Shown here piece by piece: positions 46,147-62,728 of a stretch of DNA of 64,000 nucleotides. Position 1 is the stretch's first letter. Every line of letters begins with the position of its first letter. The position numbers and the translations under genes were made by a program. Under the pieces are notes generated by a model. That model saw nothing but the letters and a program-made list of their open reading frames with translations. It had not been told where the DNA came from and searched no databases. The DNA comes from Stenotrophomonas rhizophila (GTDB lineage Bacteria; Pseudomonadota; Gammaproteobacteria; Xanthomonadales; Xanthomonadaceae), in NCBI RefSeq assembly GCF_000661955.1, contig NZ_CP007597.1:2101605-2165604 (forward strand). Reading direction: 5' to 3'.

Positions 46147-46805
<659 letters not shown>

Positions 46806-46809
<4 letters not shown>

Positions 46810-49800
46810 GCAGACTCTCCAGTGAAACGCGGCCAACGCCAGCGGCGCGGCGAACGGCGGTAGATGCGGTGGCGCGGCAGGAACAGCTCCACTTCGGTAC
46901 CCAGCCCCGGGCGTGACCACAGGCGCAGGCGCGCGCCCAGGCGTTCGGCACGTTCGCGCATGCCCACCAGTCCCCAATGGCCTTCGGCCATCGATTCGGG
47001 CAGGCCGCGTCCATCGTCGCGTACATGCAGGCGCAACCCACGCAGGCCGTAGCCCAGTTCGATCTCGATGGCGCCGGCGTGTGCATGCTGCAGGGCGTTC
47101 AACAGCGCTTCGCGGCCGATCAGATACACCTCTTCGGCCGCTGCGCGGCGCAACGGCAGTGGCGTGCCTTCCACGTTGAGGCGCAGCGCCGGGCTGCTGG
47201 CATCGCTGGCGCGCTCGCCGTACACCTGCACCAGCGCCGCACCGAGGTCCTGGTAGCCGTCACTGTCGTCGCGCAGCGCGCTGACCCGGTCGCGGCCTTC
47301 GGCCAGTGCGGTTTCTGCCTGCTGCATGGCCGCTTCCAATGCGGCCCTGACCGGCGGCGGGGTGTGGCTGGCCTGGCTGACCGCATGCAGGCGCAGGATC
47401 AAGCCCTGGGTGCCCTGCAACAACGTGTCGTGCAGTTCACGTGCGATACGCTCGCGTTCGGCGTGACGCTCCTGCAGCCGCGCACGAACCAGCTGGGTCA
47501 GGCGGCGACTGCGCAGGCGCATGGCCAGCAGGATCAGGGCCAGCAGCAGCAGCACGCAGGCGGCGTTGAACCACAGCGTCTGGTACCACATCGGCGCGAT
47601 GCGGAAACTGCGGGTCGCCGCTACCGGGCTCCACACCATGTCCTGGTTGGCCGCCACCACCTCGAACTGATAGCGACCCGGCGGCAGGTTGGTATAGAAC
47701 GCACGGGTCAGTGTGCCGGCATCCTGCCAATGCGCGTCCAGCCCGATCAGCCGGTAACGGTAGCGGGTGCGTTCGGGTCGGCTCAACGCCAGTGCCAGGT
47801 AGTCGATCTGCAGCTGGGCGGTGCCCGCGGGCAATACCATGCCGTCGCGCAGTGGCTGCTGCGTCTGCCCATGGGAGACGTCGCCGATACGCGGCTGCAG
47901 TGCGGGGCCGGCGCGTTGTGCCACGCCGGTGTCGATCCACGCCAGGCCCTGGTTGGTGGACAACCAGAGCAGGCCATCGGCCGCCAGCATCGCGCTGGGC
48001 ATCGGGGTGGTCTGCACGGCGATGCCGGGCATGCCGTCGCCACGGTCGAACAGCCGCGGTTCCACCGGCCTGCCGTGCAGCACCGACTGCTCCAGGGTCG
48101 ATGCGTCGATCCGCAGCAGGCCGCGGCTGCCGTTGAACCAGTAGTAGGCGGTGTGGTCGCGGACGATGCCGGTGATGCCTTCCAGCAGGCCGGGGGTGTC
48201 GGTCTGTGCCGCATGGAAGCGGTCGTCGTCGCCGAGCAGGGCCAGCCCGTTCTCGCCGGCTACCCAGATCCGCGTGCCGATCATGGCGGTGGCGGTGATC
48301 GGCCCCACCTGCAGGCCATCGGCACGGGTGTAATGCCGCCACGCGTGCTGGCGGCGTACGCGCAGCTCGCCGTCGGGATAGCCCATCAACACGGCACCGG
48401 CCGGGCCGGCCGCCAGGGTGGTGCAGGCGTGCCCGGGCAGCGCCGGGTCGCTGTCCCAACGGCCGCGAAGATAGTGCATCACGCGCTGGTCGCCGAAGCA
48501 GAACCAGGCTTCGTCGCGACCCAGTGGCAGCACTGCGCGCAGTTCGCGTGGCGCGGGCAGCCCGGGCGGGTGCAGTTCGTGCGACTGGCCATCGCGCATC
48601 AGCCGCAGCGCCTCCCAATCGACTACCCACAGGGGTTGGTCGCTGGCGAGCGCGGCGCGGTGCAGGTCGGCCGACGGCACCTGCAGCAGCGTGCGGCGCA
48701 ATGCCATCGGGCGCAGGTCGGCGCCGTAGGCGAACACCTGTCCGTCGGGTGCGTGGTACAGCGTGCGCAGTGGATCGGCCGGGCCCGGCAGTGTCAGGCT
48801 GCGGACCTGATGGGCGCGGAACCGGTTGAGGCCCAGGTTGGTGCCGACCCACAAGGTGCCTTCACGATCAGCCAGCACCGGCACCGCCGTGGTCGACGCC
48901 AGCCCCTGGGCAGCATCGAAGTACTCGACCGGGGCGGCGGCCGACGCGGTGACATCCAGGCGGAAGATGCCGCCGCTGTCCACCAGGCTGCCCCACAGGC
49001 TGCCATCGGCGGCGAACCGGATGCGTTTGGCCAGCAACGCGGGCCGACGCAGCGCCTCGCGTTCGGCGGCGGGCAGCAGGCCGCGGGCATCGGCCACCGG
49101 CATGAGCCCGCGCTGGCGATCGGCCAGCCACACCTGGCCGTTGTCGCGCAGGGCCAGCGATGAGAACGGCGCAACCGGCAGCGCCAGCGGTTCGAAGCGC
49201 GCGCCGTTCGCCGGCAGTCGCCACAACCGCTGCGCAGCAATCACCCACAGCGTCCCGGCCCGATCGCGCAGCAGCCACTGGGCCGGTACATCGCCGATGC
49301 CCATTGCGGCGGTGGGTACCTGCCAGCGTTCACCGTCGAACCAGCGCAGCCCACCATCGGCGGCGGCCCACAACCGGCCGCTGCCATCGCGCTCGATCCG
49401 CGGCACCAGCCCGGGCGGCAGGCCCTGTGCCTGCGCGTAGTGGGTGAGACCGTGGCGGTCGAGCCGGCTGATCCCCGCGTTGTAGTAGGCAATCCAGAGC
49501 GTGCCGTCTGGATCCAGCGCCAGCGTGGTCATGTTCGAGGACGGGAACGTGCTCCCGTTGGGCGGCGCCGGGCGTTCGAACTGGCGCCCATCGAACCGGT
49601 ACAACCCGGTGCCGGTGGCCAGCAGCAGGCTGCCGTCGGCGGGCTGGACGATATCCCAGACATCCCCGGGCGCGCCCTGGCCCACCACCCAGGCGGTGTG
49701 TTCGTACGCCGACAGCGGTGCCGCCAGCGCCGGCCATGCAGCCAGCAGGAGGCACAGCAGCAGCCAGCCGCCGGCCACGCGGCGGCGCGTGCGGGCGGGG

Positions 49801-49826
49801 ACGGGGGCGGAAACGGCAACGGGCAT
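46806..49826 (-). CDS. Two-component sensor kinase with periplasmic beta-propeller
   Basis: A 1006-residue membrane sensor kinase. After a signal/anchor (about 16-36) the periplasmic part has many two-component propeller repeats (DGTLWIAYYNAGISRLD, GRLWAAADGGLRWF, EGTLWVGTNLGLNRF), then a Y_Y_Y-type Ig domain (about 680-755). One membrane helix (about 765-785) leads to a HisKA_3 domain with the phospho-His in ARELHDTLLQGTQG and a HATPase domain (VRDDGRGLPESMAEGHWGLVGMRERA). Such kinases sense carbohydrates or other periplasmic ligands. The response regulator overlaps it. It is divergent from the AraC operon. Confidence 0.93.
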
Positions 49827-49860: not shown

Positions 49861-49873
49861 TTACTCTTTCGGG
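49861..49873 (-). promoter_or_regulatory. 13-bp motif upstream of the sensor kinase
   Basis: On the minus strand CCCGAAAGAGTAA ends 34 bp before the kinase ATG. An identical 13-mer lies at 50278-50290 before the AraC gene in the same orientation toward its gene. Together they look like sites for one regulator. Confidence 0.6.
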
Positions 49874-49930
49874 GCAGGCGCCGCGCCCGGCAGTGCGGTA
49901 CCCCTGCCGGGCCCGTTCTGGACCGCCCCC

Positions 49931-50290
49931 ATGCAACGACTGTTCGTGATGTTCCCCGACCGTGCGCCCGGCGTCGGTCTGGTGCTGCTGCGGCTCGGCC
50001 TGTGCGCGGCCGTGCTTACGCTGCCGATGGCGCCGACAGGCTGGCTGCAGCTGGCGTCGCTGGCGGCGGCGTGCCTGCTGCTGGTGGGCGTGTGGACCCC
50101 GCTGGCAGCGGTTGCGCTGCTGCTGATGATGGGCCTACACGCGGCATCGCACTGGGCCTGGCTGCCGCTGCCGGTCGCGTTGCTGCTGCTGGGCCCCGGC
50201 GCCTATTCGCTGGATGCACGTCGTTTCGGTCGACGCGTGCTGCGGCAGTCGCCCGGCGGCGGCAACGGGCGTGATCACCCGAAAGAGTAA
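49931..50290 (+). CDS. Small membrane protein of unknown function
   Basis: A 119-residue protein with about three or four hydrophobic helices (residues 15-75 and 80-95). It resembles the DoxX-like small membrane proteins in helix pattern but lacks a clear motif, so no call is made. It lies between the divergent sensor kinase and the AraC gene. Its last codons are part of the 13-bp motif at 50278-50290. Confidence 0.6.
   Translation: MQRLFVMFPDRAPGVGLVLLRLGLCAAVLTLPMAPTGWLQLASLAAACLLLVGVWTPLAAVALLLMMGLHAASHWAWLPLPVALLLLGPGAYSLDARRFGRRVLRQSPGGGNGRDHPKE
50278..50290 (+). promoter_or_regulatory. 13-bp motif upstream of the AraC gene
   Basis: CCCGAAAGAGTAA ends 36 bp before the likely AraC ATG (50327). 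It is identical to the motif before the sensor kinase (gap 34 bp there) and faces the same way relative to its gene. It overlaps the stop codon of the small membrane protein gene. Confidence 0.6.
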
Positions 50291-50326
50291 TCGCCGCTCC
50301 CTCCGATGGAGGGTAGGGCCATACGC

Positions 50327-50755
50327 ATGTCGCGGCGACCATGGCACACCCCGTCGTGGAGCCCGCTGATGGCCGCTTCGTCCCCCCCGACGCCGCCCAC
50401 GCCTGTCGCCTTGCCGCCCACCCAGGTGGCGGCGCTGCGGCGTGCCTTGGCCTACATCGATGCCAACCTGCAGCAACCGGTGCTGGTCGAACAGATGGCC
50501 GCCGCGGCCTGCGTCAGCCGTTTCCACCTGGCACGCCTGTTTCGTGCCGGTACCGGGATGAGCCCGACCGCGTACCTGCGCCAGCGCCGCATCGAACACG
50601 CCCAGCATCTGCTGCACGCCGGCGGGCTGAAGGTCAGCCAGATCGCCAGCAGCCTGTGCTTCTTCGACCAGAGCCATTTCGTGCGCAGCTTCCGCGCCGT
50701 GACCGGCTGCACCCCCCGTCATTTCGCCCGGCGCAGCCTGCGCCCGGGTGCCTGA
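50327..50755 (+). CDS. AraC-family regulator (short)
   Basis: A 142-residue AraC-type protein that is mostly the two HTH units: YIDANLQQPVLVEQMAAAAC, VSRFHLARLFRAGTGMSP, then VSQIASSLCFFDQSHFVRSFRAVTG. It has almost no sensing domain, so it may act without a ligand or be controlled by its amount. Starts at 50306 and 50369 are possible; 50327 is chosen because TAGGG lies upstream and its distance to the 13-bp motif equals that at the kinase gene. It probably activates the operon that follows 25 bp downstream. Confidence 0.83.
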   Translation: MSRRPWHTPSWSPLMAASSPPTPPTPVALPPTQVAALRRALAYIDANLQQPVLVEQMAAAACVSRFHLARLFRAGTGMSPTAYLRQRRIEHAQHLLHAGGLKVSQIASSLCFFDQSHFVRSFRAVTGCTPRHFARRSLRPGA

Positions 50756-50780
50756 ATCCCCTCGATCCCAAGGAATGCCC

Positions 50781-51437
50781 ATGAACAAGGCCACCGCCGT
50801 CGCCGGCACCTCGCTGCTGTCGCCCACCGATCACGCCCTGGTGCTGATCGACTTCCAGTCGCAGATGGCATTTGCTACCCACACCATCGACATCTCCGCG
50901 TTGCGCAACAATGCCGCGCTGATCGCCAAGGGCGCGGCCGGCTTCAACGTGCCGGTGGTGCTCACCACGGTTGCCGAGAAGTCGTTCTCCGGTCCGATGT
51001 TCCCCGAGCTGCCCGCGATCTTCCCGGGCCAGACCGTGTTCGACCGTACCTCGATGAACACCTGGGAAGACCAGCCGGTGATCGACGAGATCAACCGCAT
51101 CGGCAAGCGTCGCCTGGTGCTCGCCGGCCTGTGGACCAGCGTGTGCATCGTCGGCCCGGCGTTGTCGGCGATCGACCAGGGCTTCGAGGTCTACGTGGTG
51201 ACCGATGCGTGCGGCGACGTCAGCGTGGAAGCACACGAGCGCGCCGTGACCCGCATGGTGCAGGCCGGTGCAGTGCCGATCACGGCGGTGCAGTACCTGC
51301 TGGAACTGCAGCGCGACTGGGCACGCAGCGCAACCTACGACCTCACCACCGGCATCGCCCGTGACCATGCCGGCGGCTACGGCATCGGCATCCAGTACGC
51401 CAAGATGATGTTCGGCGCGCAGGAAGGCGGCCACTGA
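50781..51437 (+). CDS. Isochorismatase-family (YcaC-like) hydrolase
   Basis: A 218-residue cysteine hydrolase. The catalytic triad is read as Asp in LVLIDFQSQMAF, Lys in VAEKSFSGPMF and Cys in AGLWTSVCIVGPAL. YcaC-type members hydrolyse amide or related bonds of small substrates; the substrate here is unknown. AGGA precedes ATG 50781. It is the first enzyme gene after the AraC regulator and 2 bp before the DoxX gene. Confidence 0.9.
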   Translation: MNKATAVAGTSLLSPTDHALVLIDFQSQMAFATHTIDISALRNNAALIAKGAAGFNVPVVLTTVAEKSFSGPMFPELPAIFPGQTVFDRTSMNTWEDQPVIDEINRIGKRRLVLAGLWTSVCIVGPALSAIDQGFEVYVVTDACGDVSVEAHERAVTRMVQAGAVPITAVQYLLELQRDWARSATYDLTTGIARDHAGGYGIGIQYAKMMFGAQEGGH

Positions 51438-51439
51438 GC

Positions 51440-51865
51440 ATGGCCGGCGCCACCGGCCTGGACCTGGCGCTGTTGCTGCTGCGCATGGCGGCGGGCGGGT
51501 TCCTGCTGCCGCATGCGCTGGGCAAGCTGTTCGGCTGGTTCGGTGGGCCCGGCCTGGCCGGGTTCGCCGACGAGCTGCGCGGCTTCGGCCTGCCGGCGCC
51601 GCGGCCGATGCCGCTGCTGCTGGCGGCGGTGCAGGTGCTGTGCGGGCTGGCGGTGCTACTGGGCTGGCAGACCCGGCCCGGCGCGGTGATCGCGGCGGTG
51701 TTCCTGCTGTCCACCGCGCTGCTGGCGCTGCCCCATGGCTGGTTCTGGATGCGCGGCGGTGCCGAGTATTCCCTGTTCTGGACGCTGACGCTGCTGGCCA
51801 TCGCCCTGGCCGGTCCTGGCGCGTTTGCACTGCAGCCGTCACTGGCCGGGGCAGGGTGGCCATGA
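51440..51865 (+). CDS. DoxX-family membrane protein
   Basis: A 141-residue protein with four helices and the DoxX motif GGFLLPHALGKLFGWFGGPG. DoxX proteins act in membrane-linked redox or sulfur chemistry in a few species; the role here is unknown. It starts 2 bp after the hydrolase and overlaps the amidohydrolase by 4 bp. Confidence 0.88.
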   Translation: MAGATGLDLALLLLRMAAGGFLLPHALGKLFGWFGGPGLAGFADELRGFGLPAPRPMPLLLAAVQVLCGLAVLLGWQTRPGAVIAAVFLLSTALLALPHGWFWMRGGAEYSLFWTLTLLAIALAGPGAFALQPSLAGAGWP

Positions 51866-53817
51866 CCGCCTATCCGCACCATCCCGGTCGCCGCGACCTG
51901 CTGCTGGGCGTCGGCGCAGGCCTGGCACTCGCCGCAGGCGCCGGCACCTTTGCCTCATCCCCGGAGAAACGCATGTCTTCGCTGCTCATCCGCAATGCCC
52001 GCATCACCACCCTTGACCCACGCTGCCCGCAGGCCGACGCGCTCGCGGTGGTGGACGGGCGCATCGCCGCCGTCGGCACCGAAGCGCAGGTGCGTGCCGG
52101 GCTGGACGTGGGCACCGTCATCGATGCTGGCGGCCGTCGCGTAGTACCGGGCTTGAACGACAGCCATACCCATCTGATCCGCGGTGGCCTCAACTACAAC
52201 CTGGAACTGCGCTGGGACGGGCTGCGCTCGCTCAGCGATGCGATGGCCATGCTGAAGGCGCAGGTGGACAACACGCCGGCCCCGCAATGGGTGCGTGTGG
52301 TGGGCGGGTTCACCGCCGAGCAGTTCGTGGAAAAGCGGTTGCCCACCCTGGCCGAGCTCAACGCCATCGCGCCGGACACGCCGGTCTTCCTGCTGCACCT
52401 GTACGACCGGGCGCTGCTCAACGGCGCCGCGCTGCGGGCCTGTGGCTATGACCGCAACACGCCGGACCCGCCGGGCGGTCAGATCGCGCGCGACAGCCTG
52501 GGCACTCCCACCGGCCTGCTGCTGGCCAAGCCCAACGCGCTGATCCTGTACGCCACGCTGGCCAAGGGACCGCGCCTGCCGATGGAGTACCAGGCCAATT
52601 CCACCCGGCATTTCATGCACGAACTGAACCGGTTGGGCATCACCTCGGTGATCGACGCCGGGGGTGGCTTCCAGAACTATCCGGAGGACTACCAGGTCAT
52701 CGAGCAGCTGCACCGCGACGGCGAGCTCACCGTGCGCATCGCCTACAACCTGTTCACCCAGAACAAGGGCAAGGAAAAGCAGGACTTCCAGCACTGGAGC
52801 GAGATCGTCGCCCCGCGCCAGGGCGATGACCTGCTGCGTCACAACGGTGCCGGCGAGATGCTGGTGTTCTCCGCAGCCGACTTCGAACTGTTCAACGAGC
52901 CGCGCCCGGAACTGCCGCCCGGCATGGAGCCGGAGCTGGAAGAGGTGGTGCGGCTGCTGGTCGAGAAGCGGTGGCCGTTCCGCATCCATGCCACCTACGA
53001 CGAAAGCATCGACCGCATCCTGGATGTGTACGAGCAGGTCAACCGCGAGATTCCGTTCGACGGCCTGCACTGGTTCATCGACCACGCCGAGACCATCACC
53101 CCGCGCAACATCGACCGCATCCGCGCGCTCGGTGGCGGGCTGGCCATCCAGCACCGCATGGCCTACCAGGGCGAGGCGTTCGTGCAGCGTTATGGCAGCG
53201 AAGCGGCACGCCACACCCCGCCGGTGCGGCGCATGCTGCAGGCCGGCGTGCCGGTGGGCGCAGGTACCGACGCCACCCGCGTGGCGAGCTACAACCCGTG
53301 GGTGGCGCTGTCGTGGCTGGTCACCGGGCGCACCGTGGGCGGGTTGGCGCTGTATGGCGAGGAGAATCTGCTGGAGCGCGAGGAAGCGCTGCGGCTGTGG
53401 ACGCAGGGCAGCGCGTGGTTCTCGGGCGACGAAGCCCACAAGGGCACGCTGGGAGTCGGACAGCTGGCCGACTTCTGCGTGTTGTCCTCGGACTTCTTCG
53501 CGGTGGACGATGCCGCCATTGCCGATATCACCAGCCTGCTGACCGTGGTGGGCGGGCGGGTGGTGTACGGCGACGGCGACTTCGCGCCGCTGGCCCCGGT
53601 GCTGCCGCCGGCCATGCCCGATTGGTCGCCGGTCAACCGCTTTGGCGGCTACCACGTAGGCGGCGCGGCGACCGGGCTGACCGCGCACGCGCATGCCCAC
53701 GCGGCAGGCGGCTGCCGCACCCATGGCGCGCACGGCCATGCCGCCGCACACGCCGTGCCCACCGATGCGCCGAATGCGTTCTGGGGTGCATTGGGATGTT
53801 CGTGCTTCGCCTTCTGA
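51862..53817 (+). CDS. YtcJ-like amidohydrolase with a Tat-type leader
   Basis: A 651-residue amidohydrolase of the Amidohydro_3 (YtcJ-like) type. The HxH metal motif is in LNDSHTHLIRGGLN and a later metal His/Asp pair in HWFIDHAETITP and GAGTDATRVASY. The N terminus MTAYPHHPGRRDLLLGVGAG is a Tat-type signal. A second ATG at 51973 has GGAG 9 bp upstream and starts at MSSLLIRNARITTLDP, the usual enzyme start, so a cytoplasmic form is possible. The last 40 residues are His-rich (AHAHAHAAGGC, HGAHGHAAAH). The substrate is unknown. Confidence 0.85.
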   Translation: MTAYPHHPGRRDLLLGVGAGLALAAGAGTFASSPEKRMSSLLIRNARITTLDPRCPQADALAVVDGRIAAVGTEAQVRAGLDVGTVIDAGGRRVVPGLNDSHTHLIRGGLNYNLELRWDGLRSLSDAMAMLKAQVDNTPAPQWVRVVGGFTAEQFVEKRLPTLAELNAIAPDTPVFLLHLYDRALLNGAALRACGYDRNTPDPPGGQIARDSLGTPTGLLLAKPNALILYATLAKGPRLPMEYQANSTRHFMHELNRLGITSVIDAGGGFQNYPEDYQVIEQLHRDGELTVRIAYNLFTQNKGKEKQDFQHWSEIVAPRQGDDLLRHNGAGEMLVFSAADFELFNEPRPELPPGMEPELEEVVRLLVEKRWPFRIHATYDESIDRILDVYEQVNREIPFDGLHWFIDHAETITPRNIDRIRALGGGLAIQHRMAYQGEAFVQRYGSEAARHTPPVRRMLQAGVPVGAGTDATRVASYNPWVALSWLVTGRTVGGLALYGEENLLEREEALRLWTQGSAWFSGDEAHKGTLGVGQLADFCVLSSDFFAVDDAAIADITSLLTVVGGRVVYGDGDFAPLAPVLPPAMPDWSPVNRFGGYHVGGAATGLTAHAHAHAAGGCRTHGAHGHAAAHAVPTDAPNAFWGALGCSCFAF

Positions 53818-55091
53818 CCCTGGGCCTGGCCGCTGCGTCGCCGGCGCTGGCCTGCGAGGCGGACGGCCGCGGCCAGTGCATGGCGCTGGACGGCGGTGGT
53901 GAGCTGCAGATGGATGCCTCGCTGCGTCTGCGCAGCATGTATTACGACCCGACCCGCTTCGGCGTGCAGGGCGGGCAGGAGGACGGTTACGGGCTGCTGC
54001 GGGCGCTGGCGTCGATCCGCGCCCAACGCGACGGCTGGCAGGCCGTGGCGCAACTGGGCGTGCATGCCGAGCAGGGACGCCGCGGGGGTGCCGGTGGCAC
54101 CGACCGGGGTGCGCTGGATGTGCAGCAGGGCTACGTGCACTGGCAGGGCGAACACGTTGGCTGGCAGCTGGGCCGCCAGGAGGCCGGCTACGGCAGCTCG
54201 CGGCTGCTGTCGGTGCGCGACGGGCCGAACATCCGGCTGGCGTTCGACGGCGTGCGCGGCCGCTGGCGCGCGCCGCGCTGGCAGCTGGACCTGATGGCGC
54301 TGCGCCCGGTCGACAACCGGCCCGGTGCATTCGATGACCGCAGCGACCACGGCCAGTACCTGCTGGGCGGGTATGCAACGCTGCAGGGACGCAGCGCGGG
54401 CAACGGTCTGGACCTGTACCTGCTGGGCTATGGTCGCGACGATGCCCGCTTTGCCGGTGCCCAGGGCGACGAGCGGCGCACGACCCTTGGGGCACGCTGG
54501 TTCGCCCGGCAGCCACGCTGGGATGCCAACGTCGAACTGGTGGGGCAACGCGGCACCCTGTCCGGGGCGCAGGGTGACCTGTCCATCCGCGCGTGGACGC
54601 TGGCCAGCGATACCGGCGTGCGCTGGTCGCAACGGACCTGGCAACCGCGCCTGGGCGTGAAAGTGGACATCGCCAGTGGCGACCGCACGCCCGGTGATGG
54701 CCGCCTGCAGACGTTCAATGCGCTGTATCCCAAGGCGGCGTACTTCAGCGAGGCCAGCCTGTTGGCACCGGCCAACCTGATGGACGTGCAGCCGACCCTG
54801 ACCCTGACCCCGCATCCGGCGATCACCACCGAATTCGGCTGGCAGCTGGCGTGGAAGCATCGCCGCGCCGATGCGATCTACACCACCCCCGCGCCACTGG
54901 CCGCGCTGCCGGGCAGTGCCGGCACACCGCGCCGGATTGGGCAGCAGTTCAAGTGGGAAACCACGTGGCGGGCAAGCCCGCAGTGGCAATGGCAGGCGCA
55001 GTTGGCCTGGTTCGAGGCCGGTCCCGGCCTGCGCGCGGCCGGTGGCCGCGACACTTTGTTTGCATCGATGGTAGGAGCGTGGCAATGGTAA
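53796..55091 (+). CDS. Outer-membrane porin, alginate-export-like
   Basis: A 431-residue outer-membrane protein with a signal peptide (to about residue 20, ALAC) and many amphipathic beta strands. It resembles the alginate-export/AlgE-type porins (LRLRSMYYDPTRFG, ARQEAGYGSSRLLSVRDGPN-type segments such as GYGSSRLLSVRDGPNIRLAF). It ends in an aromatic residue (AWQW), as expected for insertion into the outer membrane. It overlaps the amidohydrolase by 22 bp and the MFS gene by 7 bp, so it probably supplies or exports the pathway substrate. Confidence 0.8.
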   Translation: MFVLRLLTLGLAAASPALACEADGRGQCMALDGGGELQMDASLRLRSMYYDPTRFGVQGGQEDGYGLLRALASIRAQRDGWQAVAQLGVHAEQGRRGGAGGTDRGALDVQQGYVHWQGEHVGWQLGRQEAGYGSSRLLSVRDGPNIRLAFDGVRGRWRAPRWQLDLMALRPVDNRPGAFDDRSDHGQYLLGGYATLQGRSAGNGLDLYLLGYGRDDARFAGAQGDERRTTLGARWFARQPRWDANVELVGQRGTLSGAQGDLSIRAWTLASDTGVRWSQRTWQPRLGVKVDIASGDRTPGDGRLQTFNALYPKAAYFSEASLLAPANLMDVQPTLTLTPHPAITTEFGWQLAWKHRRADAIYTTPAPLAALPGSAGTPRRIGQQFKWETTWRASPQWQWQAQLAWFEAGPGLRAAGGRDTLFASMVGAWQW

Positions 55092-56716
55092 GCAACAACG
55101 AGGGCGCCGCACCCGGCGCATGGTCGCCGCTGAAGATCGGCCTGTTCCGCGCGATGTGGCTGGCCATCCTGGGCAGCAACGTGGGCACCTGGATCAATGA
55201 CGTGGCTGCCGCCTGGGTGATGGCCGAGCGCACCGGGTCGCCGTTGATGGTGGCGCTGGTGCAGTCGGCGACCACGGTGCCGGTGGTGCTGCTGGCGCTG
55301 GTGGCCGGCACCCTGGCCGACATCGTCGACCGACGCCGCTACCTGCTGTTCACCCAGGGCTGGATGCTGCTGGTGGCGGCCACGCTGGCCACGTTGACGG
55401 GGCTGTCGATGCTGACCCCCGGGTTGCTGGTGGCGCTGACCTTCGCGATGGGCTGCGGCGCGGCGATGGCGATGCCGGCGCAGGCGGCGATCGTGTCCGA
55501 GCTGGTGCCACGGCCGATGCTGGCTTCGGCGGTGGCGTTGAATTCGATCGGGATCAACATTGCGCGCTCGCTGGGCCCGGCCATTGGCGGGTTGATCGTG
55601 GCGCAGTTGGGGCCAAGCTGGGCGTTTGGTCTGAATGCGCTGAGCTTTGCCGCAATGCTGATCGTATTGACCCGCTGGACGCCGGACGCAGCGGCCTCCA
55701 CGCTGCCGCCGGAAGGCTTCGGTGCGGGACTGCGCGCGGGCCTGCGTTATGCACTGCGCGCCGGCCGCCTGCAGGCGGTGCTGGTGAAGTCGGCCGGGTT
55801 CTTCTTCTTCGCCAGTGCGGTGACCGCGCTGCTGCCGCTGGTGGTGCGTGGGGAGATGCACGGCGGCGCGGGCCTCTACGGGATCCTGCTGGGCTGTATC
55901 GGCATCGGTGCGGTGACCGGCGCGCTGGTGCTGCCGACGCTGCGTGCGCGCATGGACCGCGACCTGTTGGTACTGCTGGCCACGCTGGCCTGCGCGCTGA
56001 GCCTGTTCGGGCTGGCCTGGCTGCGGCACATGGCGCTGTTGCCGGTGGCGATGCTGATCAATGGCTTTGCCTGGATCACGGTGCTGTCCTCGCTGCAGAT
56101 CGCCGCGCAGACCGCGGTGCCGCCGTGGGTGCGGGCGCGTGCGTTGTCGCTGTACATCATGGTGTTCTCGTTGGGCATGGCGGCCGGCGGCCTGAGCTGG
56201 GGCAGCATTGCCCAGCGCACGTCGATCCCGCTGGCGTTGACGATCGCCTCGGTTGGCGCGGTAATCGCCGGGCTGCTGGTGTGGCGGGTGCGCATCGCGG
56301 GCAGCGAGGAGCTGGACCTGCGTCCCGCCGGCTACTGGCCAGCGCCCGAGCTGGCGGTGCCGGTGTCGCATGATCGCGGTCCGGTGCTGGTCACGGTGGA
56401 GTACCGCATCGCCGATGCCGACCGCGCGGCGTTCCACGTGTTGATGGGGGAGCTGGGTCGCACCCGGCGCCGCGACGGCGCGGTGCTGTGGGGCGTGGCC
56501 GAGGACGTGGCTACGCCGGGCATTCACCTGGAGTATTTCGTGACCAGCTCCTGGGTGGAACATCTGCGCCAGCATGAGCGCGTGACCGCTGAAGACCGCG
56601 ATCACCAGCAGAAGGTGCGGGCGCTGCACCGCGGCGAGCACGCGCCGATCGTCAGGCATTTTGTGGGTGGTCATGGCGCGCTGCCGCCGTTGAAGCACTC
56701 GCACGAACTGGGCTGA
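55085..56716 (+). CDS. MFS exporter with soluble C-terminal domain (MFS_3 type)
   Basis: A 543-residue transporter with about 11-12 helices over the first 425 residues (ILGSNVGTWINDVAAAWVMA near helix 1, and LVAGTLADIVDRRRYLLF as motif A). A soluble C-terminal domain of about 105 residues (VLVTVEYRIADADRAAFHVL to IVRHFVGGH) resembles ABM-type monooxygenase folds, as in the MFS_3 (EntS-like) family. It ends the AraC operon. It may export the product of the upstream enzymes. Confidence 0.88.
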   Translation: MVSNNEGAAPGAWSPLKIGLFRAMWLAILGSNVGTWINDVAAAWVMAERTGSPLMVALVQSATTVPVVLLALVAGTLADIVDRRRYLLFTQGWMLLVAATLATLTGLSMLTPGLLVALTFAMGCGAAMAMPAQAAIVSELVPRPMLASAVALNSIGINIARSLGPAIGGLIVAQLGPSWAFGLNALSFAAMLIVLTRWTPDAAASTLPPEGFGAGLRAGLRYALRAGRLQAVLVKSAGFFFFASAVTALLPLVVRGEMHGGAGLYGILLGCIGIGAVTGALVLPTLRARMDRDLLVLLATLACALSLFGLAWLRHMALLPVAMLINGFAWITVLSSLQIAAQTAVPPWVRARALSLYIMVFSLGMAAGGLSWGSIAQRTSIPLALTIASVGAVIAGLLVWRVRIAGSEELDLRPAGYWPAPELAVPVSHDRGPVLVTVEYRIADADRAAFHVLMGELGRTRRRDGAVLWGVAEDVATPGIHLEYFVTSSWVEHLRQHERVTAEDRDHQQKVRALHRGEHAPIVRHFVGGHGALPPLKHSHELG

Positions 56717-57131: not shown

Positions 57132-57228
57132 GCCGGCTGCGCCTGGAAAGCGTCGTGGCACGTTTCTGCTTGGGAGGATGACCCGTCCTGCCATAGGTTG
57201 ACACCTGTGGCGGATGAATCGGCCGCCG

Positions 57229-58113
57229 TCAGGCGGCCAAGGACGCCCGATGCACTGCATCGGGCGTCTGCATTTTAAGGGACAGGTGCGGCCGCTCGGC
57301 GTTATAGATCGCCACCGACTCGGCCACCATCTGCCGTGCCTGCGCCAGGTCCCGAGGGCGATGCAGCAGGAATTCGCCTTTCAAGATCCCATTTACCCGT
57401 TCTGCCAACGCATTCTGGTAGCAGTCGTAGCCGTCGGTCATCGAGCAGGTTACGCCGTGCGCGGCGTGGATCTTCTGGTAGTAATCCGAGCAGTATTGGA
57501 TACCTCGATCGGAGTGGTGGACCAGTTGTTGACGCGTTTTTCGTCCTTTCAGCGCCATCTGCAACGCCTGGGCAACCTGCTCGGTCTGCAGCGTGTCGTG
57601 CACACTCCAGCCAACGATCTTGCGTGACCAAGCATCCGTAATCAGGCTCAGATAGACGAATTTCCCTTGCGTTGGCAGGTAGGTGATGTCGGCGACCCAC
57701 ACCTGCTCGCAGCCGGTGGGTACCACGCGCCCCTCGCCAGCTTTGAGCAGGTTGGGGTGCCGCCGGAAGCGGTGATGGCTGTTGGTTGTCTTGTGATATG
57801 CGCGCCGCATGGGCACCAGGAGCCGGGCATCACGAAGGACACCAAACAGGCGGTCCCGCCCCATCGCTATCCCCGATGCCTGCAGTGCCGGCCTGATCAG
57901 ACCGTGGAGCTTGCGGGTGCCGATGCGTGGCTGACGGGCCCGATAGCCACCCACCAAGGCGATCGCCCGCGCGCCCTCGACCAGCTGCTGTTGTTGGCGA
58001 TGGCCGGCTTTGTAGTACGCCTGCCGACTAATGCCGAAATGTCGGCAAGCCCTTGCCACGCTTAGGCCTTGGAGGCGCCCTTGCGTGAGGACTTGCCGGA
58101 AGGCTTTTTTACG
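57229..58113 (-). CDS. IS3 transposase OrfB (DDE domain)
   Basis: The -1 frame of the IS, about 295 codons from the frameshift site. It has an IS3 HTH_21-like segment (ARACRHFGISRQAYYKA) and the catalytic core: Asp in VWVADITYLP, Asp in VHHSDRGIQYCS and Glu in ALAERVNGILKGE. There is no good independent start, so the active transposase is the OrfAB fusion made by -1 frameshifting. Confidence 0.92.
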   Translation of the reverse strand, partial: RKKAFRQVLTQGRLQGLSVARACRHFGISRQAYYKAGHRQQQQLVEGARAIALVGGYRARQPRIGTRKLHGLIRPALQASGIAMGRDRLFGVLRDARLLVPMRRAYHKTTNSHHRFRRHPNLLKAGEGRVVPTGCEQVWVADITYLPTQGKFVYLSLITDAWSRKIVGWSVHDTLQTEQVAQALQMALKGRKTRQQLVHHSDRGIQYCSDYYQKIHAAHGVTCSMTDGYDCYQNALAERVNGILKGEFLLHRPRDLAQARQMVAESVAIYNAERPHLSLKMQTPDAVHRASLAA

Positions 58114-58463
58114 ATGCGTACCCCGTAGTCCTCTTTGAGGACATCGACGATGGCTTCGAAAAGCTGCGCTTTCTCGTTGGCTTCCCGCAGTTGCACCTGC
58201 AAGGCCTTGATCTGTTGTTCCGGCGTCAGCGGCTTGCCCGCCCCGCTTTTGGGTGAAGTGGTCATGGGGGCAGATGATGCACCACCCGACCAGTCCTGCC
58301 GACCATGTCGGCGAAGCCACTTCAGCACGGTACTGCTGCCTTGGATGCCGTATCGATCCTGGGCCTGACGATAGGTCAGCTCCCCACGCTCGATCTGGTC
58401 GACCACCGCCAATTTGAAGGCCAGCGAGTAATCCCGCTGGCTGCGCCTGAGTGTTGAATCCAT
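58062..58463 (-). CDS. IS3 OrfA (DNA-binding, frameshift donor)
   Basis: A 133-residue HTH/leucine-zipper protein (YSLAFKLAVVDQIERGELTY, then a coiled segment ALQVQLREANEKAQLFEAIV). The slippery heptamer A_AAA_AAG at 58110-58104 lies inside it, after which the -1 frame continues as orfB. OrfA alone normally represses transposition. Confidence 0.92.
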   Translation of the reverse strand: MDSTLRRSQRDYSLAFKLAVVDQIERGELTYRQAQDRYGIQGSSTVLKWLRRHGRQDWSGGASSAPMTTSPKSGAGKPLTPEQQIKALQVQLREANEKAQLFEAIVDVLKEDYGVRIVKKPSGKSSRKGASKA

Positions 58464-58523
58464 TGAACATTCCTCTTCCTGTGGGAAAAGGTGTCAACTC
58501 AATTCAGGACGGGTCAGGAAAAC

Positions 58524-58577: not shown

Positions 58578-59570
58578 TCAGGCCTTGGCGAAGGCCAGCA
58601 GGTCCTGGTTGAACTGATCGGCGTGGGTCACGGTCAGGCCATGCGGCGCGCCCGGGTACACCTTCAACGTGGCATTGGCCACGATCTTCGCCGACAGCCG
58701 GCCCGACGCATCGATCGGCACGATCTGGTCGTCATCGCCATGCACCACCAACGTCGGCACGTCGATCTTCTTCAGATCCTGCGTGTAGTCCACCTCGGAG
58801 AACTCGCGGATGCAGTCGTACTGCCCCTTGTGACCGCCCTGCATGCCCTGCAGCCAGAATGCGTCGCGCATGCCCTGGCTGACCTTGTGACCGTCACGGT
58901 TGGCACCGAAGAACGGCGTGGTCAGGTCCTGGTAGAACTGCGAGCGGTCGGCCGCCACCCCGGCGCGGATGCCGTCGAACACGCTCATCGGCAGGCCGCC
59001 CGGATTGGTGGCGCTCACCACCATCTGCGGCGGCACGGCACCCACCAGCACGGCCTTCGCCACGCGCTTGCTGCCGTGGCGGCCGATGTAATGGGCGATC
59101 TCGCCGCCGCCGGTGGAGTGGCCCACCAGGATGGCGTCCTTCAGGTCCAGCGCTTCGATCAGCGAGGCCAGGTCGTCGGCGTAGGTGTCCATGGTGTTGC
59201 CGTCCCAGGTCTGCGTGGAACGACCATGGCTGCGGCGGTCATGCGCGATCACGCGGTAACCGTGCTGGCCCATGAACAGCATCTGCGGGTCCCAGGCGTC
59301 GCTGCTGAGCGGCCAGCCATGGGCGAACACGACCGGCTGGCCGTGGCCCCAGTCCTTGTAGAAGATGCGGGTGCCGTCTTTGACGGTGTGGTAGCTGCTC
59401 ATCTGGGTATCTCCGGTGGGGTGGGGGTAGGGGTGGGAAACAGCAGGCCCCGAGGCAAACGCCTGGCCTGGCAACGCAGGCAGCATCAACGCTGCCGACA
59501 CGGCCATGCCGGTGGCCAGGAACTGCCGCCGGGTGGGATCGCCAGGGCGATCGGGAAGAAATGACGACAT
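58578..59570 (-). CDS. Alpha/beta hydrolase (chloroperoxidase/esterase type) with Tat leader
   Basis: A 330-residue alpha/beta hydrolase. The catalytic Ser is in [14 protein letters not shown], the Asp in [11 protein letters not shown] and the His in [10 protein letters not shown], as in non-heme haloperoxidase/arylesterase proteins. The N-terminal [16 protein letters not shown] is a Tat signal ending near AFA. An internal ATG at 59402 with GGAG upstream starts [18 protein letters not shown], the usual family start of about 274 residues, so a cytoplasmic form is possible. The substrate is unknown. Confidence 0.9.
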
Positions 59571-59731: not shown

Positions 59732-60505
59732 ATGCGTTGGATCGTGTTGTTGGCCGCATTGGCCATGCCGGTGGTGTCGTGGTTCTCGCAATCCGGCGCA
59801 TTCGGCCCGACCAATGGCGCGATTTCCGACCGCTATCCGACCCTGTTGGTCGCTGCGGGCTACGCGTTCGCGATCTGGGGCGTGATCTTCCTGTGGGACG
59901 TGGTCTTCGGGCTGTGGCAGCTGCGCCGGCGCCGCCCGGACCTGCCCGGCGTGCGTGGCTGGGCGGCGGCGGGCTTCGCGCTGACGGCCGCGTGGATGCC
60001 GGTGTTTTCCAACCAGTGGTTCCTGCCCGCGCTGGCGATCATCTGGGCTGCGCTGGTGTGCCTGTTGATGGCCGCCGTGCGCGCCGCCCCCACCGACGCC
60101 ACCGGCGGCCAGCGCGCCTGGGCGGCATATCCGCTGGCGCTGCATGCCGGCTGGCTGACGATGGCCGCCTTCCTCAACACGGCCCAGGTGATCGTGGCCT
60201 ACCAGTGGCTGCCCACCGCCGACATGTTCGGCTGGAGCGTGGTGCTGCTGGCCCTTGCCACGGTGCTGGCCTGGGCGATGAACCAGCGCCTGCGCGGGCA
60301 TTTCGCGTACCCGGCGGCCGTGGTCTGGGCGCTGGTCGGTGTGTACGTGAAGCAGTCGGGCTGGCGCCTGCCCGGTGCCGATACCGTGTCGGTGCTGGCG
60401 CTGGCGGTTGCCGCGCTGCTGGTGCTGCAGACGTTGCTGCTGCGCACGCGGGCGTGGCGCCATCCGACCGTGCCGGTCGTGGCCGCGCACCGCCACCGAC
60501 GTTGA
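59732..60505 (+). CDS. TspO-like tryptophan-rich membrane protein
   Basis: A 257-residue polytopic protein with about eight helices. The segment FGPTNGAISDRYPTLLVAAG and the Trp-rich helices (AFAIWGVIFLWDVVFGLW) resemble the TspO/MBR group, which binds tetrapyrroles, although it is about 100 residues longer than classical TspO. ATG 59732 with GGAG at -10 is preferred over TTG 59714. Confidence 0.72.
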   Translation: MRWIVLLAALAMPVVSWFSQSGAFGPTNGAISDRYPTLLVAAGYAFAIWGVIFLWDVVFGLWQLRRRRPDLPGVRGWAAAGFALTAAWMPVFSNQWFLPALAIIWAALVCLLMAAVRAAPTDATGGQRAWAAYPLALHAGWLTMAAFLNTAQVIVAYQWLPTADMFGWSVVLLALATVLAWAMNQRLRGHFAYPAAVVWALVGVYVKQSGWRLPGADTVSVLALAVAALLVLQTLLLRTRAWRHPTVPVVAAHRHRR

Positions 60506-60593
60506 GGTCACGCGTCTCCGGGCACCGTGTGTGCCCGTGCAAGGCCGGGCGCTGCCCGGCAATCCCCCATTGAACTGGCAACAGGAGACTTCC

Positions 60594-61571
60594 ATGCGCG
60601 CTGCATTGCATGACACCTTTGGCGATCCCACCATCGTGCTGCACGGGGGTGACGTACCCACCCCGCAGCCGGGCGCGGGCGAGGTGCGTATCCGCACCGT
60701 GCTGGCCCCCATCCACAACCATGACCTGTGGACCGTACGCGGCAAGTACGGCTACAAGCCCACGCTGCCGGCGGTTGGTGGCAGTGAAGCAACCGGCGTG
60801 ATCGACGCGCTGGGCGAGGGCGTTGAAGGCCTGGCGGTGGGTCAGCGGGTGAGCGCCGCGTCGGTGCATGGCACCTGGGCCGAGCACTTCATCGCACCGG
60901 CGAAGATGGTCATTCCGATGCCGGATGCGATCGACGATGAAACCGCGGCGCAGCTGATCGCGATGCCGCTGAGCGCGCTGATGCTGCTGGAGTTCCTGCA
61001 GGTCCACGAGGGTCAGTGGATCCTGCAGAACGCCGCCAATGGCGCGGTCGGCAAGGCGCTGGCGATGCTGTCCAAGGCGCGCGGCGTGCACTGCGTGAAC
61101 CTGGTGCGGCGCGATGCCGGCGTGGCGGAAATGGAGGCGCTGGGCATCGACAACACGATTTCCACCGCCCAGTCGGATTGGATGGCGCAGGTGCAGACGC
61201 GGCTGGCCGGCGGCTCGATCGCTGCGGCGGTCGACTCGGTGGGCGGGCGTGCCAGCAGCGAGCTGATGACGTTGCTGGGGGATGGCGGCACGCTGGTGTC
61301 GTTCGGCTCGATGACCGGCGAACCGATGCAGCTCAACTCGGGCGACGTGATCTTCAAGCAGGCCACGGTGAAGGGGTTCTGGGGCAGCAAGGTGAGCCAG
61401 GCGATGGCCCCGGACGACAAGCGCCGGCTGGTGGGTGAGCTGCTGCAGCTGGCTGCACGCGGTGGGCTGAGCCTGCCGGTGGATGGTGTGTTCGGACTGG
61501 ACGAGGTGGCGGCTGCTGCCGCTGCGAGTCTGGAACCGGGCCGCAACGGCAAGGTGCTGCTGCGCCCGTGA
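60594..61571 (+). CDS. Zinc-type MDR alcohol/quinone dehydrogenase
   Basis: A 325-residue medium-chain dehydrogenase of the quinone oxidoreductase/enoyl reductase branch. The cofactor motif is NAANGAVGKALAML near residue 145. The zinc ligands of true alcohol dehydrogenases are not visible, so it is probably an NADPH-dependent enone or quinone reductase. CAGGAG precedes the ATG. A short hairpin (60544-60560) precedes it and a SMAG pair follows. Confidence 0.87.
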   Translation: MRAALHDTFGDPTIVLHGGDVPTPQPGAGEVRIRTVLAPIHNHDLWTVRGKYGYKPTLPAVGGSEATGVIDALGEGVEGLAVGQRVSAASVHGTWAEHFIAPAKMVIPMPDAIDDETAAQLIAMPLSALMLLEFLQVHEGQWILQNAANGAVGKALAMLSKARGVHCVNLVRRDAGVAEMEALGIDNTISTAQSDWMAQVQTRLAGGSIAAAVDSVGGRASSELMTLLGDGGTLVSFGSMTGEPMQLNSGDVIFKQATVKGFWGSKVSQAMAPDDKRRLVGELLQLAARGGLSLPVDGVFGLDEVAAAAAASLEPGRNGKVLLRP

Positions 61572-61582
61572 GGGCCGGCTGG

Positions 61583-61650
61583 GTAGAGCCGACCGTTGGT
61601 CGGCTGTTCCGGGTCGGGCACCGCGACAGCCGACCAACGGTCGGCTCTAC
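61583..61650. repeat. SMAG-type inverted repeat pair
   Basis: Two GTAG palindromes face each other: GTAG plus an 8-bp stem (61587-61594 with 61598-61605), then its inverted copy (61627-61650) ending CTAC. This is the dimer form of the SMAG REP family. The LysR gene on the minus strand ends inside it: its TAG stop is part of GTAG. Confidence 0.87.
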
Positions 61651-62540
61651 CGGGCTGCGCGTAACGCTTCTATTACTACGCGCATCGCGCTGGAGGATTG
61701 GCGGCGGCTGGGGTAGTAGGCGTAATAACCGTCGAACACGTCGCACCAGTCGTCCATGACGCGGCGCAGGCGACCCGCCTGGACGTGTTCCAGCACCATG
61801 TCTTCGGGCAGGTAGGCCAGGCCGGCGCCGGCCAGGGTCGCGCGCAACATGGCGCTGCTGCCGTTGAACGTCCATTGCCCGTCCACGCGCACGTTGGCCT
61901 CCTGGCCGTCTTTCTGCAGGTCCCACACCATCAGTCCGCCGTGGGTAGGCAGGCGCAGCCCGATGCAGTTGTGCGCGGCCAGATCCGCCGGTGCTTGGGG
62001 CGCGACGTGATGGACGAAATAGGCCGGGCTGGCCACGATCGCCATGCGCTGCGGGCCGCTGATCGGCACGGCGATCATGTCGTTGGCCACGCGTCCGCCT
62101 AGGCGGATGCCGATGTCGTACCGCTGCGCCACGATGTCGGCCAGGCCGTAGTCGACGGTAAGCTCCACGCGCAGGTCGGGGTAGGCCGGCAGTATCGCGC
62201 TCAGGCGTGGCCAGACAATGCTGTTGGCCGCGTGTTCGGCGGTGGTGATGCGGATGGTGCCGGCAGGATGGTCGCGGTAGTCGCTGATGGCCACCAGCTC
62301 GGCCTCGATCTCCTGCATGCGCGGGGCCACGGTGTCGTACAGGCGTTCGCCGGCCTCGGTCATCGACACGCTGCGGGTGGTGCGGGTGAGCAGGCGCACC
62401 CCGAGACGCTCTTCCAGGCCTCGCACGGTGTGGCTCAGCGCGGACTGCGAGACGCCGAGCTGCGCGGCGGCGCGGGTGAAGCTGCGCTCGCGGGCCACGG
62501 CGACGAAGACCTGCAGGTCGTTGAAATTCTCGCGGGCCAT
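61647..62540 (-). CDS. LysR-family regulator (stop codon in a SMAG repeat)
   Basis: A 297-residue LysR-type protein. The HTH is AVARERSFTRAAAQLGVSQS, followed by the linker and ligand domain (GTIRITTAEHAANSIVWPRL). It probably controls the divergent cupin gene 188 bp away. Its stop codon is the TAG of the SMAG repeat, so the repeat may have set the C terminus. ATG 62540 gives the family start. Confidence 0.91.
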   Translation of the reverse strand: MARENFNDLQVFVAVARERSFTRAAAQLGVSQSALSHTVRGLEERLGVRLLTRTTRSVSMTEAGERLYDTVAPRMQEIEAELVAISDYRDHPAGTIRITTAEHAANSIVWPRLSAILPAYPDLRVELTVDYGLADIVAQRYDIGIRLGGRVANDMIAVPISGPQRMAIVASPAYFVHHVAPQAPADLAAHNCIGLRLPTHGGLMVWDLQKDGQEANVRVDGQWTFNGSSAMLRATLAGAGLAYLPEDMVLEHVQAGRLRRVMDDWCDVFDGYYAYYPSRRQSSSAMRVVIEALRAAR

Positions 62541-62728
62541 CGGCGGCGTCCGGCACGCATGTGATTCATGCCTGGCCATGATGAGTCCGGGTCACTGGTG
62601 AGCACAAGGCGCCAAGCGCTGATGATTGATGAGTGATGTTCATCTCTGCATGCGCGCTGCGGCAGGCAGTGGCGAGGTTGGCAGGGACTACAGTGGGACG
62701 GTCCGTTTTCCACGTCGAGGAGTTCCGC

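Follow-up and report, generated by a model that had tools for sequence, protein, structure and literature searches.

What does a run of genes that combines a sensor kinase, an amidohydrolase and an exporter do for the cell that carries it? The locus considered here lies in a 64,000-nucleotide stretch of Stenotrophomonas rhizophila DNA (the window; NZ_CP007597.1, positions 2,101,605 to 2,165,604), from a genome that is a single contig of 4.65 Mb. It encodes a sensor histidine kinase (HK) and a response regulator (RR), an AraC-type regulator, a YcaC-like hydrolase, a DoxX protein, an amidohydrolase with a twin-arginine translocation (Tat) leader, here called AmiH, a porin and an MFS_3 exporter. 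A first-pass annotation had read these genes as one linked, locally regulated module in which an outside compound is taken up by the porin, hydrolysed and exported as a product. Gene starts, reading frames and overlaps were verified by translation and domains were assigned by Pfam. All genes named in that annotation are present where it placed them; the kinase and RR do stand beside AraC, but both lie outside the span of 49861-56716 given for the module. The reading that we favour, at a probability of about one half, is that of an inducible module of the envelope, which would detoxify an aromatic or electrophilic compound by hydrolysing it outside the cytoplasm.

Linkage of the genes around AmiH

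In a survey of 119 genomes of the family, AmiH was found in 16 (threshold E<=1e-60). A YcaC-family gene lies within ~2 kb of AmiH in all 16 of these genomes and an MFS_3 match within ~6 kb in 15, so that the homologues are linked and conserved, as first proposed, rather than scattered; the grouping exceeds chance. At the search thresholds, YcaC was found in 21 of the 119 genomes, MFS_3 in 20, HK in 20 and ABH, an alpha/beta hydrolase described below, in 44; AmiH is missing from five of the YcaC, five of the MFS_3 and five of the HK genomes. Every one of the 14 genomes with YcaC at >=69% identity is AmiH-positive (Fisher p=2e-16), as is every one of the 12 with MFS_3 at >=56% identity (p=2e-13); full-length HK at >=40% identity is present in 15, of which 13 are AmiH-positive (p=7e-13); the identity cuts behind these values were set after the hits were seen, and the genomes are related, hence not independent.

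A wider scan of named species genomes, with 15 AmiH sequences as query, returned at least 565 stretches encoding relatives. The best 80 were kept, and the closest relative among them is that of Stenotrophomonas sp. VV52 (92%). The content of these 80 loci, which represent close AmiH relatives only and carry up to 10 kb of flanking DNA on each side (eight are short-flanked), was scored by tblastn with bit-score cuts. YcaC is found in 75 of the loci, MFS_3 in 42, an ABH relative in 40, the porin in 38, RR and AraC in 33 each, DoxX in 19 and LysR in 18; two loci (L050 and L098) have none of YcaC, MFS_3, ABH and porin. Homologues of a small DoxX-like gene next to HK are present in nine loci, all from the Xanthomonad group, with weak matches in loci L103-L105, which are described below.

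AmiH matches also occur on 366 of 72,556 plasmid records; 13 of the 366 are labelled Escherichia. In the AmiH tree, the sequence of Archangium, one of two from Myxococcota, nests within a supported Xanthomonad-order set (97/90), a position that suggests transfer. The Archangium locus (L041) has HK, RR, YcaC, AmiH and MFS_3 close together.

Operator-like sites and regulation

Comparison of the DNA between HK and YcaC brought out a repeated element, TACTCTTTCGGG, which occurs in the window at 49862 on the forward strand (O1) and at 50289 on the reverse strand, ahead of AraC (O2). The pair flanks the small DoxX-like gene, which sits between HK and AraC and whose 119-aa product has no match in Pfam. 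Perfect matches to TACTCTTTCGGGKNA number exactly two in the 4.65 Mb genome, namely O1 and O2, with five further matches at two mismatches; the reversed control gave 14 at up to two mismatches. O2 is a composite of CCCGAAAGAGTA followed by GGGTAGGGC, and this arrangement has a best match in each of 16 sequences of the Stenotrophomonas/Xanthomonas group (L023-L037 and the window), with 4-6 substitutions in a search that allowed up to six substitutions and variable spacing and was run without a shuffled control. The HK-to-operon DNA of 19 sequences, 17 kb in all, contains 22 matches to the 12-base core ACTCTTTCGGGG at up to two mismatches, and 416 kb elsewhere in these sequences contain 14; the reversed control gave 1 and 14, respectively. 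The pair of matching sites, at 49862 and at 50276-50319, lends support to the predicted local regulation. When 14 distant loci were scanned for the site motif as a relaxed inverted repeat, the matches were mostly chance-like, and the operator claim is therefore confined to the Stenotrophomonas/Xanthomonas group and L103-L105.

In two loci (L023 and L024) the sites are kept and AraC has no match. Since the sites persist in these loci, the RR is the likely, though putative, binder of O1 and O2, and AraC looks accessory. The kinase carries ELHDT at residues 797-801. Loci L103-L105, from three genomes of one genus (G044, G077 and G104), have the order RR, HK, site, DoxX-like gene, site and AraC with ABH alongside, and this stretch contains no AmiH, YcaC, porin or MFS_3 (G044 has AmiH elsewhere on the same contig). 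Because the arrangement occurs there without AmiH, the HK/RR switch appears to form a separate unit.

Within the operon, the DoxX stop shares bases with the AmiH start, AmiH and the porin gene overlap by 22 nt, the porin and MFS_3 genes overlap by 7 nt, and 2 nt separate YcaC from DoxX; the coordinates agree with the description of the last four genes as overlapping or abutting. These overlaps, and the presence of one site pair upstream, would fit a single mRNA over 50327-56716. No promoter-like site emerged from a scan for the sigma-70 consensus; terminator-like matches are at chance level (6 found versus 4.0 expected) and include 55034-55050, within the end of the porin gene. This last match, chance-level as it is, would suit an arrangement by chance, or one of several units that are regulated separately and have no joint function, as would the fact that order and partners vary, with kinase, AraC, DoxX and porin coming and going. 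We consider such an explanation very improbable because the genes occur together across Proteobacteria and in two Myxococcota (YcaC is present in 75 of 80 loci), because genes overlap, and because the site pair is unique in the genome. The features are collected in Table 1.

Table 1. Coordinates of the genes and operator-like sites in the window.
Feature	Position	Strand	Basis or remark
NarL-family RR	46147-46809	-	Pfam Response_reg and GerE
HK with periplasmic propeller	46806-49826	-	Pfam Reg_prop, Y_Y_Y, HisKA_3, HATPase_c
Operator-like site O1, TACTCTTTCGGGGCAGG	49862-49878	+	Between divergent HK and DoxX-like genes
Small DoxX-like membrane gene, 119 aa	49931-50290	+	Named by eye from resemblance
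Composite operator-like site O2, CCCGAAAGAGTA ... GGGTAGGGC	50276-50319		Upstream of araC-ycaC operon
AraC-type regulator, 128 aa	50369-50755	+	DNA-binding domain only; Pfam HTH_18, HTH_AraC
YcaC-like cysteine hydrolase	50781-51437	+	Isochorismatase fold; PF00857
DoxX membrane protein	51440-51865	+	PF07681
AmiH, Tat-leader Amidohydro_3 (YtcJ-like) metallohydrolase	51862-53817	+	PF07969, E=7.3e-135
AmiH C-terminal Cys/His tail, residues 618-651	53713-53814	+	Conserved across AmiH sequences
Alginate_exp-family outer-membrane porin	53796-55091	+	PF13372, E=1.6e-62
MFS_3 exporter with C-terminal soluble domain	55085-56716	+	PF05977
IS3-type element	57179-58516		Inverted repeats and rve domain; separates ABH from operon, not part of module
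ABH, Tat-leader alpha/beta hydrolase	58578-59570	-	Cofactor-free haloperoxidase/arylesterase type; probable module member

AmiH, its tail and its partner proteins

AmiH scores 451.5 bits against Amidohydro_3 (curated 29.7), and residues H102, H104, H376, H408 and D470 are invariant in 58 sequences. The metal ligands of amidohydrolases follow the pattern HxH, H, H, D, and by this analogy the invariant residues are putative metal ligands. The N-terminus has a twin-arginine motif and a hydrophobic stretch, GRRDLLLGVGAGLALAAGAG, recognised by eye without a signal predictor; this points to a predicted location of AmiH outside the cytoplasm. With a Tat leader on AmiH, hydrolysis would precede any uptake. 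The proposed order of porin uptake, hydrolysis and export is thus not supported. The porin has no match in 42 of the 80 loci, nor in the five named Xanthomonas loci, and we regard it as optional.

In the AlphaFold model of AmiH (mean predicted local distance difference test score (pLDDT) 83, predicted template modelling score 0.85), the nearest folds are amidohydrolases; uncharacterised archaeal hydrolases match best, followed by triazine hydrolases, deaminases and others. Both of the closest solved structures, 3icj and 3igh, bear the title uncharacterized. Given the spread of these matches, the substrate is not readable from the structure, and the model does not place the C-terminal tail, most of which has a pLDDT below 50.

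The tail itself, first described as His-rich, is real and turns out to be a conserved Cys/His tail. GCxC plus an aromatic residue plus one or two residues forms the C-terminal end (...FWGxxGCxC) in 81 of 81 AmiH sequences, and the fuller Cys/His pattern is found in 80 of them, the exception being L057. A tail profile matched 31 of 299 genomes of the phylum, three of them weakly. There were 32 matches at E<=1.8e-8, of which 31 fall on AmiH-sized frames of 619-806 aa; the remaining strong match is a 66-aa frame beside stop codons (L106, G338:C7:638752-638895), probably a gene remnant. Four weaker matches (E 0.003-0.009) were set aside as probably due to chance, and in the 80 loci just three open reading frames (ORFs) other than AmiH matched, with a chance-like ending. 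A broader proposal, which we hold tentatively and rate somewhat below even odds, is that AmiH represents a widespread, horizontally moving and undescribed class of secreted detoxification enzymes. The invariant tail (C-x-V-H-G-H-x-H ... FWGxxGCxC-x-A) would then be an element of a new kind that binds metal, senses redox state or is modified and on which folding, export or activity depends, and the HK/RR cassette a portable switch attached by different lineages.

Among the partners, the YcaC-like protein matches the structure of E. coli YcaC (1yac) at E=6.4e-33. It shares the isochorismatase fold and the D/R/C residues with PA1202 and E. coli YcaC, its D24, R89 and C122 corresponding to the published active site D19/R84/C118 (PMC4519933). 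The accessible part of the same paper leaves the function of YcaC itself unassigned (PMC4519933). Since the window protein scores 127.1 bits against the YcaC equivalog NF041461, whose cut-off is 310, it is a YcaC relative and not YcaC itself. The porin shares its domain with the alginate exporter family (PF13372), but no alginate gene is present among the identified neighbours, a check that covered only part of the neighbouring ORFs and none of the genome beyond them; no PDB sequence matched it at E<=0.001. An alginate-export-domain gene and an allantoate amidohydrolase are mentioned, without a tie to the cluster, in the accessible text of one paper (PMC6337780).

MFS_3 matches PF05977 with 609.5 bits over residues 11-527, that is, over its full length including the C-terminal part. 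The soluble C-terminal domain remarked on in the first-pass annotation does exist, but it is an ordinary part of the family (profile positions 2-518 of 524). The model (mean pLDDT 85) has about a dozen long helices and a C-terminal domain at 434-527 with the order b-a-b-b-a-a-b of strands (b) and helices (a), which we take to resemble the ABM fold; BLAST similarity between this domain and the stand-alone ABM protein of L126 is not significant. A stand-alone ABM-type protein is encoded directly before AmiH in L126 and L132 (PF03992 above the cut-off) and in L123 (just below it), and the same position is taken by such a protein in L136 (annotated) and L130 (by eye). In Rahnella an ABM gene directly precedes AmiH.

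From published descriptions of PAO1, we infer that PA2698-PA2701 of Pseudomonas aeruginosa is probably a counterpart of the operon: a hydrolase, the Tat amidohydrolase PA2699, the OpdB porin PA2700, and PA2701, presumably an MFS gene. The accessible parts of three papers describe PA2699 as a YtcJ-like amidohydrolase that is a Tat-dependent exoprotein under phosphate starvation and whose His-tagged form was mostly in aggregates (PMC4899797), PA2698 as a probable hydrolase that is upregulated with PA2699 and PA1202 across the comparisons made (PMC8402870), and PA2700/OpdB as part of an operon PA2699-2701 (PMC11599538). A further locus (L122, genome G179) has the order YcaC, AmiH with the same tail, and porin; it differs from the window in that an OprD-family porin replaces Alginate_exp and no kinase matches. 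AepA is, we presume, a named AmiH relative, for which no confirming paper was found. One match (P0203) is named N-substituted formamide deformylase by its source.

AmiH, an enzyme of the secreted type, thus ends in a tail that is very conserved and unexplained, occurs in many proteobacteria and on plasmids, and has no function assigned in the open-access literature searched; a function for it would help explain PA2699. No description of the cluster was found in open-access full text as judged by titles and abstract openings, a search that leaves most subscription papers and all preprints outside.

Proposed function, its rivals and the adjoining DNA

In the detoxification reading, the periplasmic propeller of HK would respond to a compound from outside (an aromatic or electrophilic xenobiotic is most likely) or to the damage that it does. 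Phosphorylated RR would then bind O1 and O2 and activate the divergent unit that encodes it, the gene of the small DoxX-like protein, and the araC-ycaC-doxX-amiH-porin-mfs operon. AmiH, as a metal-dependent hydrolase, and ABH, of the perhydrolase/arylesterase type, would exit by the Tat route, as their leaders suggest, and cleave the compound outside the cytoplasm, with YcaC hydrolysing what reaches the cytosol. The MFS_3 pump, plus the porin where present, would clear substrate or product, and the DoxX proteins may aid membrane redox balance. A sensor, a site pair and a small operon make this function testable, and an inducer of the O2 promoter would point to the likely substrate.

The preference for a compound of the aromatic or electrophilic type rests on the neighbour genes and on a P. 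fluorescens transcriptome (PMC5557065, accessible in part). Near AmiH, 14 ORF clusters were inspected, with Pfam run on representatives of seven and with Dps and the WrbA-like protein named by eye. ORF clustering of the 80 loci gave DoxX in 21, DUF1275 in 18 (two clusters), pirin in 16, XapX/DUF1427 in 12, a cluster without Pfam match in 8, Dps in 5 and the WrbA-like protein in 2. Pirin has three genes in the window's own 4.65 Mb genome, so that ~1% of 22-kb loci would be expected to carry one, versus the 16 of 80 found. A Novosphingobium plasmid has, by its annotation, a run of HK, RR, alpha/beta hydrolase, Dps, hydrolase, XapX, amidohydrolase, hypothetical protein, DoxX, alginate-export-family porin and YoaK, and an Agrobacterium record has YoaK, DUF1427, an NAD(P)H oxidoreductase and YceI around AmiH. 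For P. fluorescens In5 confronted with Rhizoctonia, the accessible part of that study records a rise of pirins and azoreductases as well as of an esterase and a DoxX protein (PMC5557065).

ABH probably belongs to the module although it lies outside the span first given. It matches chloroperoxidase F (1a8s, E=3.5e-127) and a P. putida esterase (1zoi) across the whole domain and carries a GHSTGG elbow; unlike the cofactor-free haloperoxidases/arylesterases, it has a twin-arginine leader and adjoins a sensor-controlled cluster. In 12 Xanthomonad-group loci ABH adjoins MFS_3 in convergent orientation. As it also lies beside RR, HK, the DoxX-like gene and AraC in L103-L105, where AmiH is missing, it probably belongs with the switch.

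Several observations weigh against the detoxification reading or parts of it. Of the 16 family genomes, 11 have an HK match within ~12 kb of AmiH (at 33-37% identity in three of them), four have it elsewhere and one has none at the threshold; in the 80 loci, HK is present in just 29. Six Stenotrophomonas sequences (L026, L027, L031, L032, L035 and L036, five of them named S. maltophilia) have no core at two mismatches, only diverged forms of it. ABH lies within ~6 kb of AmiH in nine of the 16 genomes, at 13-15 kb in two and elsewhere in five, and its relatives are common (44 of the 119 family genomes). Upstream of ABH in 16 sequences, with starts extrapolated, the site motif gave only two matches, both at three mismatches (L033 and L037) and unconvincing. 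Among the neighbour counts, the control was made for pirin alone. The fungus-induced genes of In5 resemble the cluster by name, as putative orthologues, and in the accessible text of that paper the word isochorismatase is missing (amidohydrolase was not searched for; PMC5557065). Finally, pcaF and coenzyme A (CoA)-transferase genes in Agrobacterium and subunits of a hydroxyarylic acid decarboxylase in Rahnella, each ~5 kb from AmiH, also suit catabolism.

These aromatic-catabolism genes near two AmiH loci keep alive the catabolic scheme of the first-pass annotation, in which a nutrient with an amide or ester bond enters through the porin and is hydrolysed by AmiH and YcaC, its product then being used or exported. 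A peripheral catabolic cluster usually has such parts (porin, hydrolases, transporter), the kinase would serve as a nutrient sensor, and the porin of L122 is of the OprD family, which includes substrate-specific uptake members. We nevertheless judge this scheme unlikely: MFS_3 is weakly similar to the exporter EntS (92 bits, cut-off 324), more than half of the 80 loci have no porin match, hydrolysis would occur outside the cytoplasm, and ring-cleavage and CoA-ligase genes are not among the 14 neighbour clusters inspected or in the Novosphingobium run.

The haloperoxidase/arylesterase grouping of ABH, the Dps, XapX, WrbA-like and DoxX neighbours, and an AmiH tail that could respond to redox or metal would also fit a response to oxidant damage, in which the module is induced not by one substrate but by reactive chlorine, peracid or redox-cycling stress, and damaged molecules of the envelope are what AmiH and ABH act on. 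The 14 clusters inspected and three annotated records show no catalase, peroxiredoxin or methionine sulfoxide reductase, and we give this explanation a low probability as well.

The IS3-type element between the operon and ABH has 28-bp inverted repeats that are 82% complementary, GGA on both sides and an rve transposase domain. In L023 only ~110 bp separate MFS_3 from the next matched gene, so that the element is absent there. Past ABH, the genes at 59744-62579 code for a membrane protein that Pfam does not match, an alcohol dehydrogenase of the zinc type and, divergently oriented, a LysR regulator; the same membrane protein and dehydrogenase directly follow MFS_3 in L023, with 85% and 84% identity.

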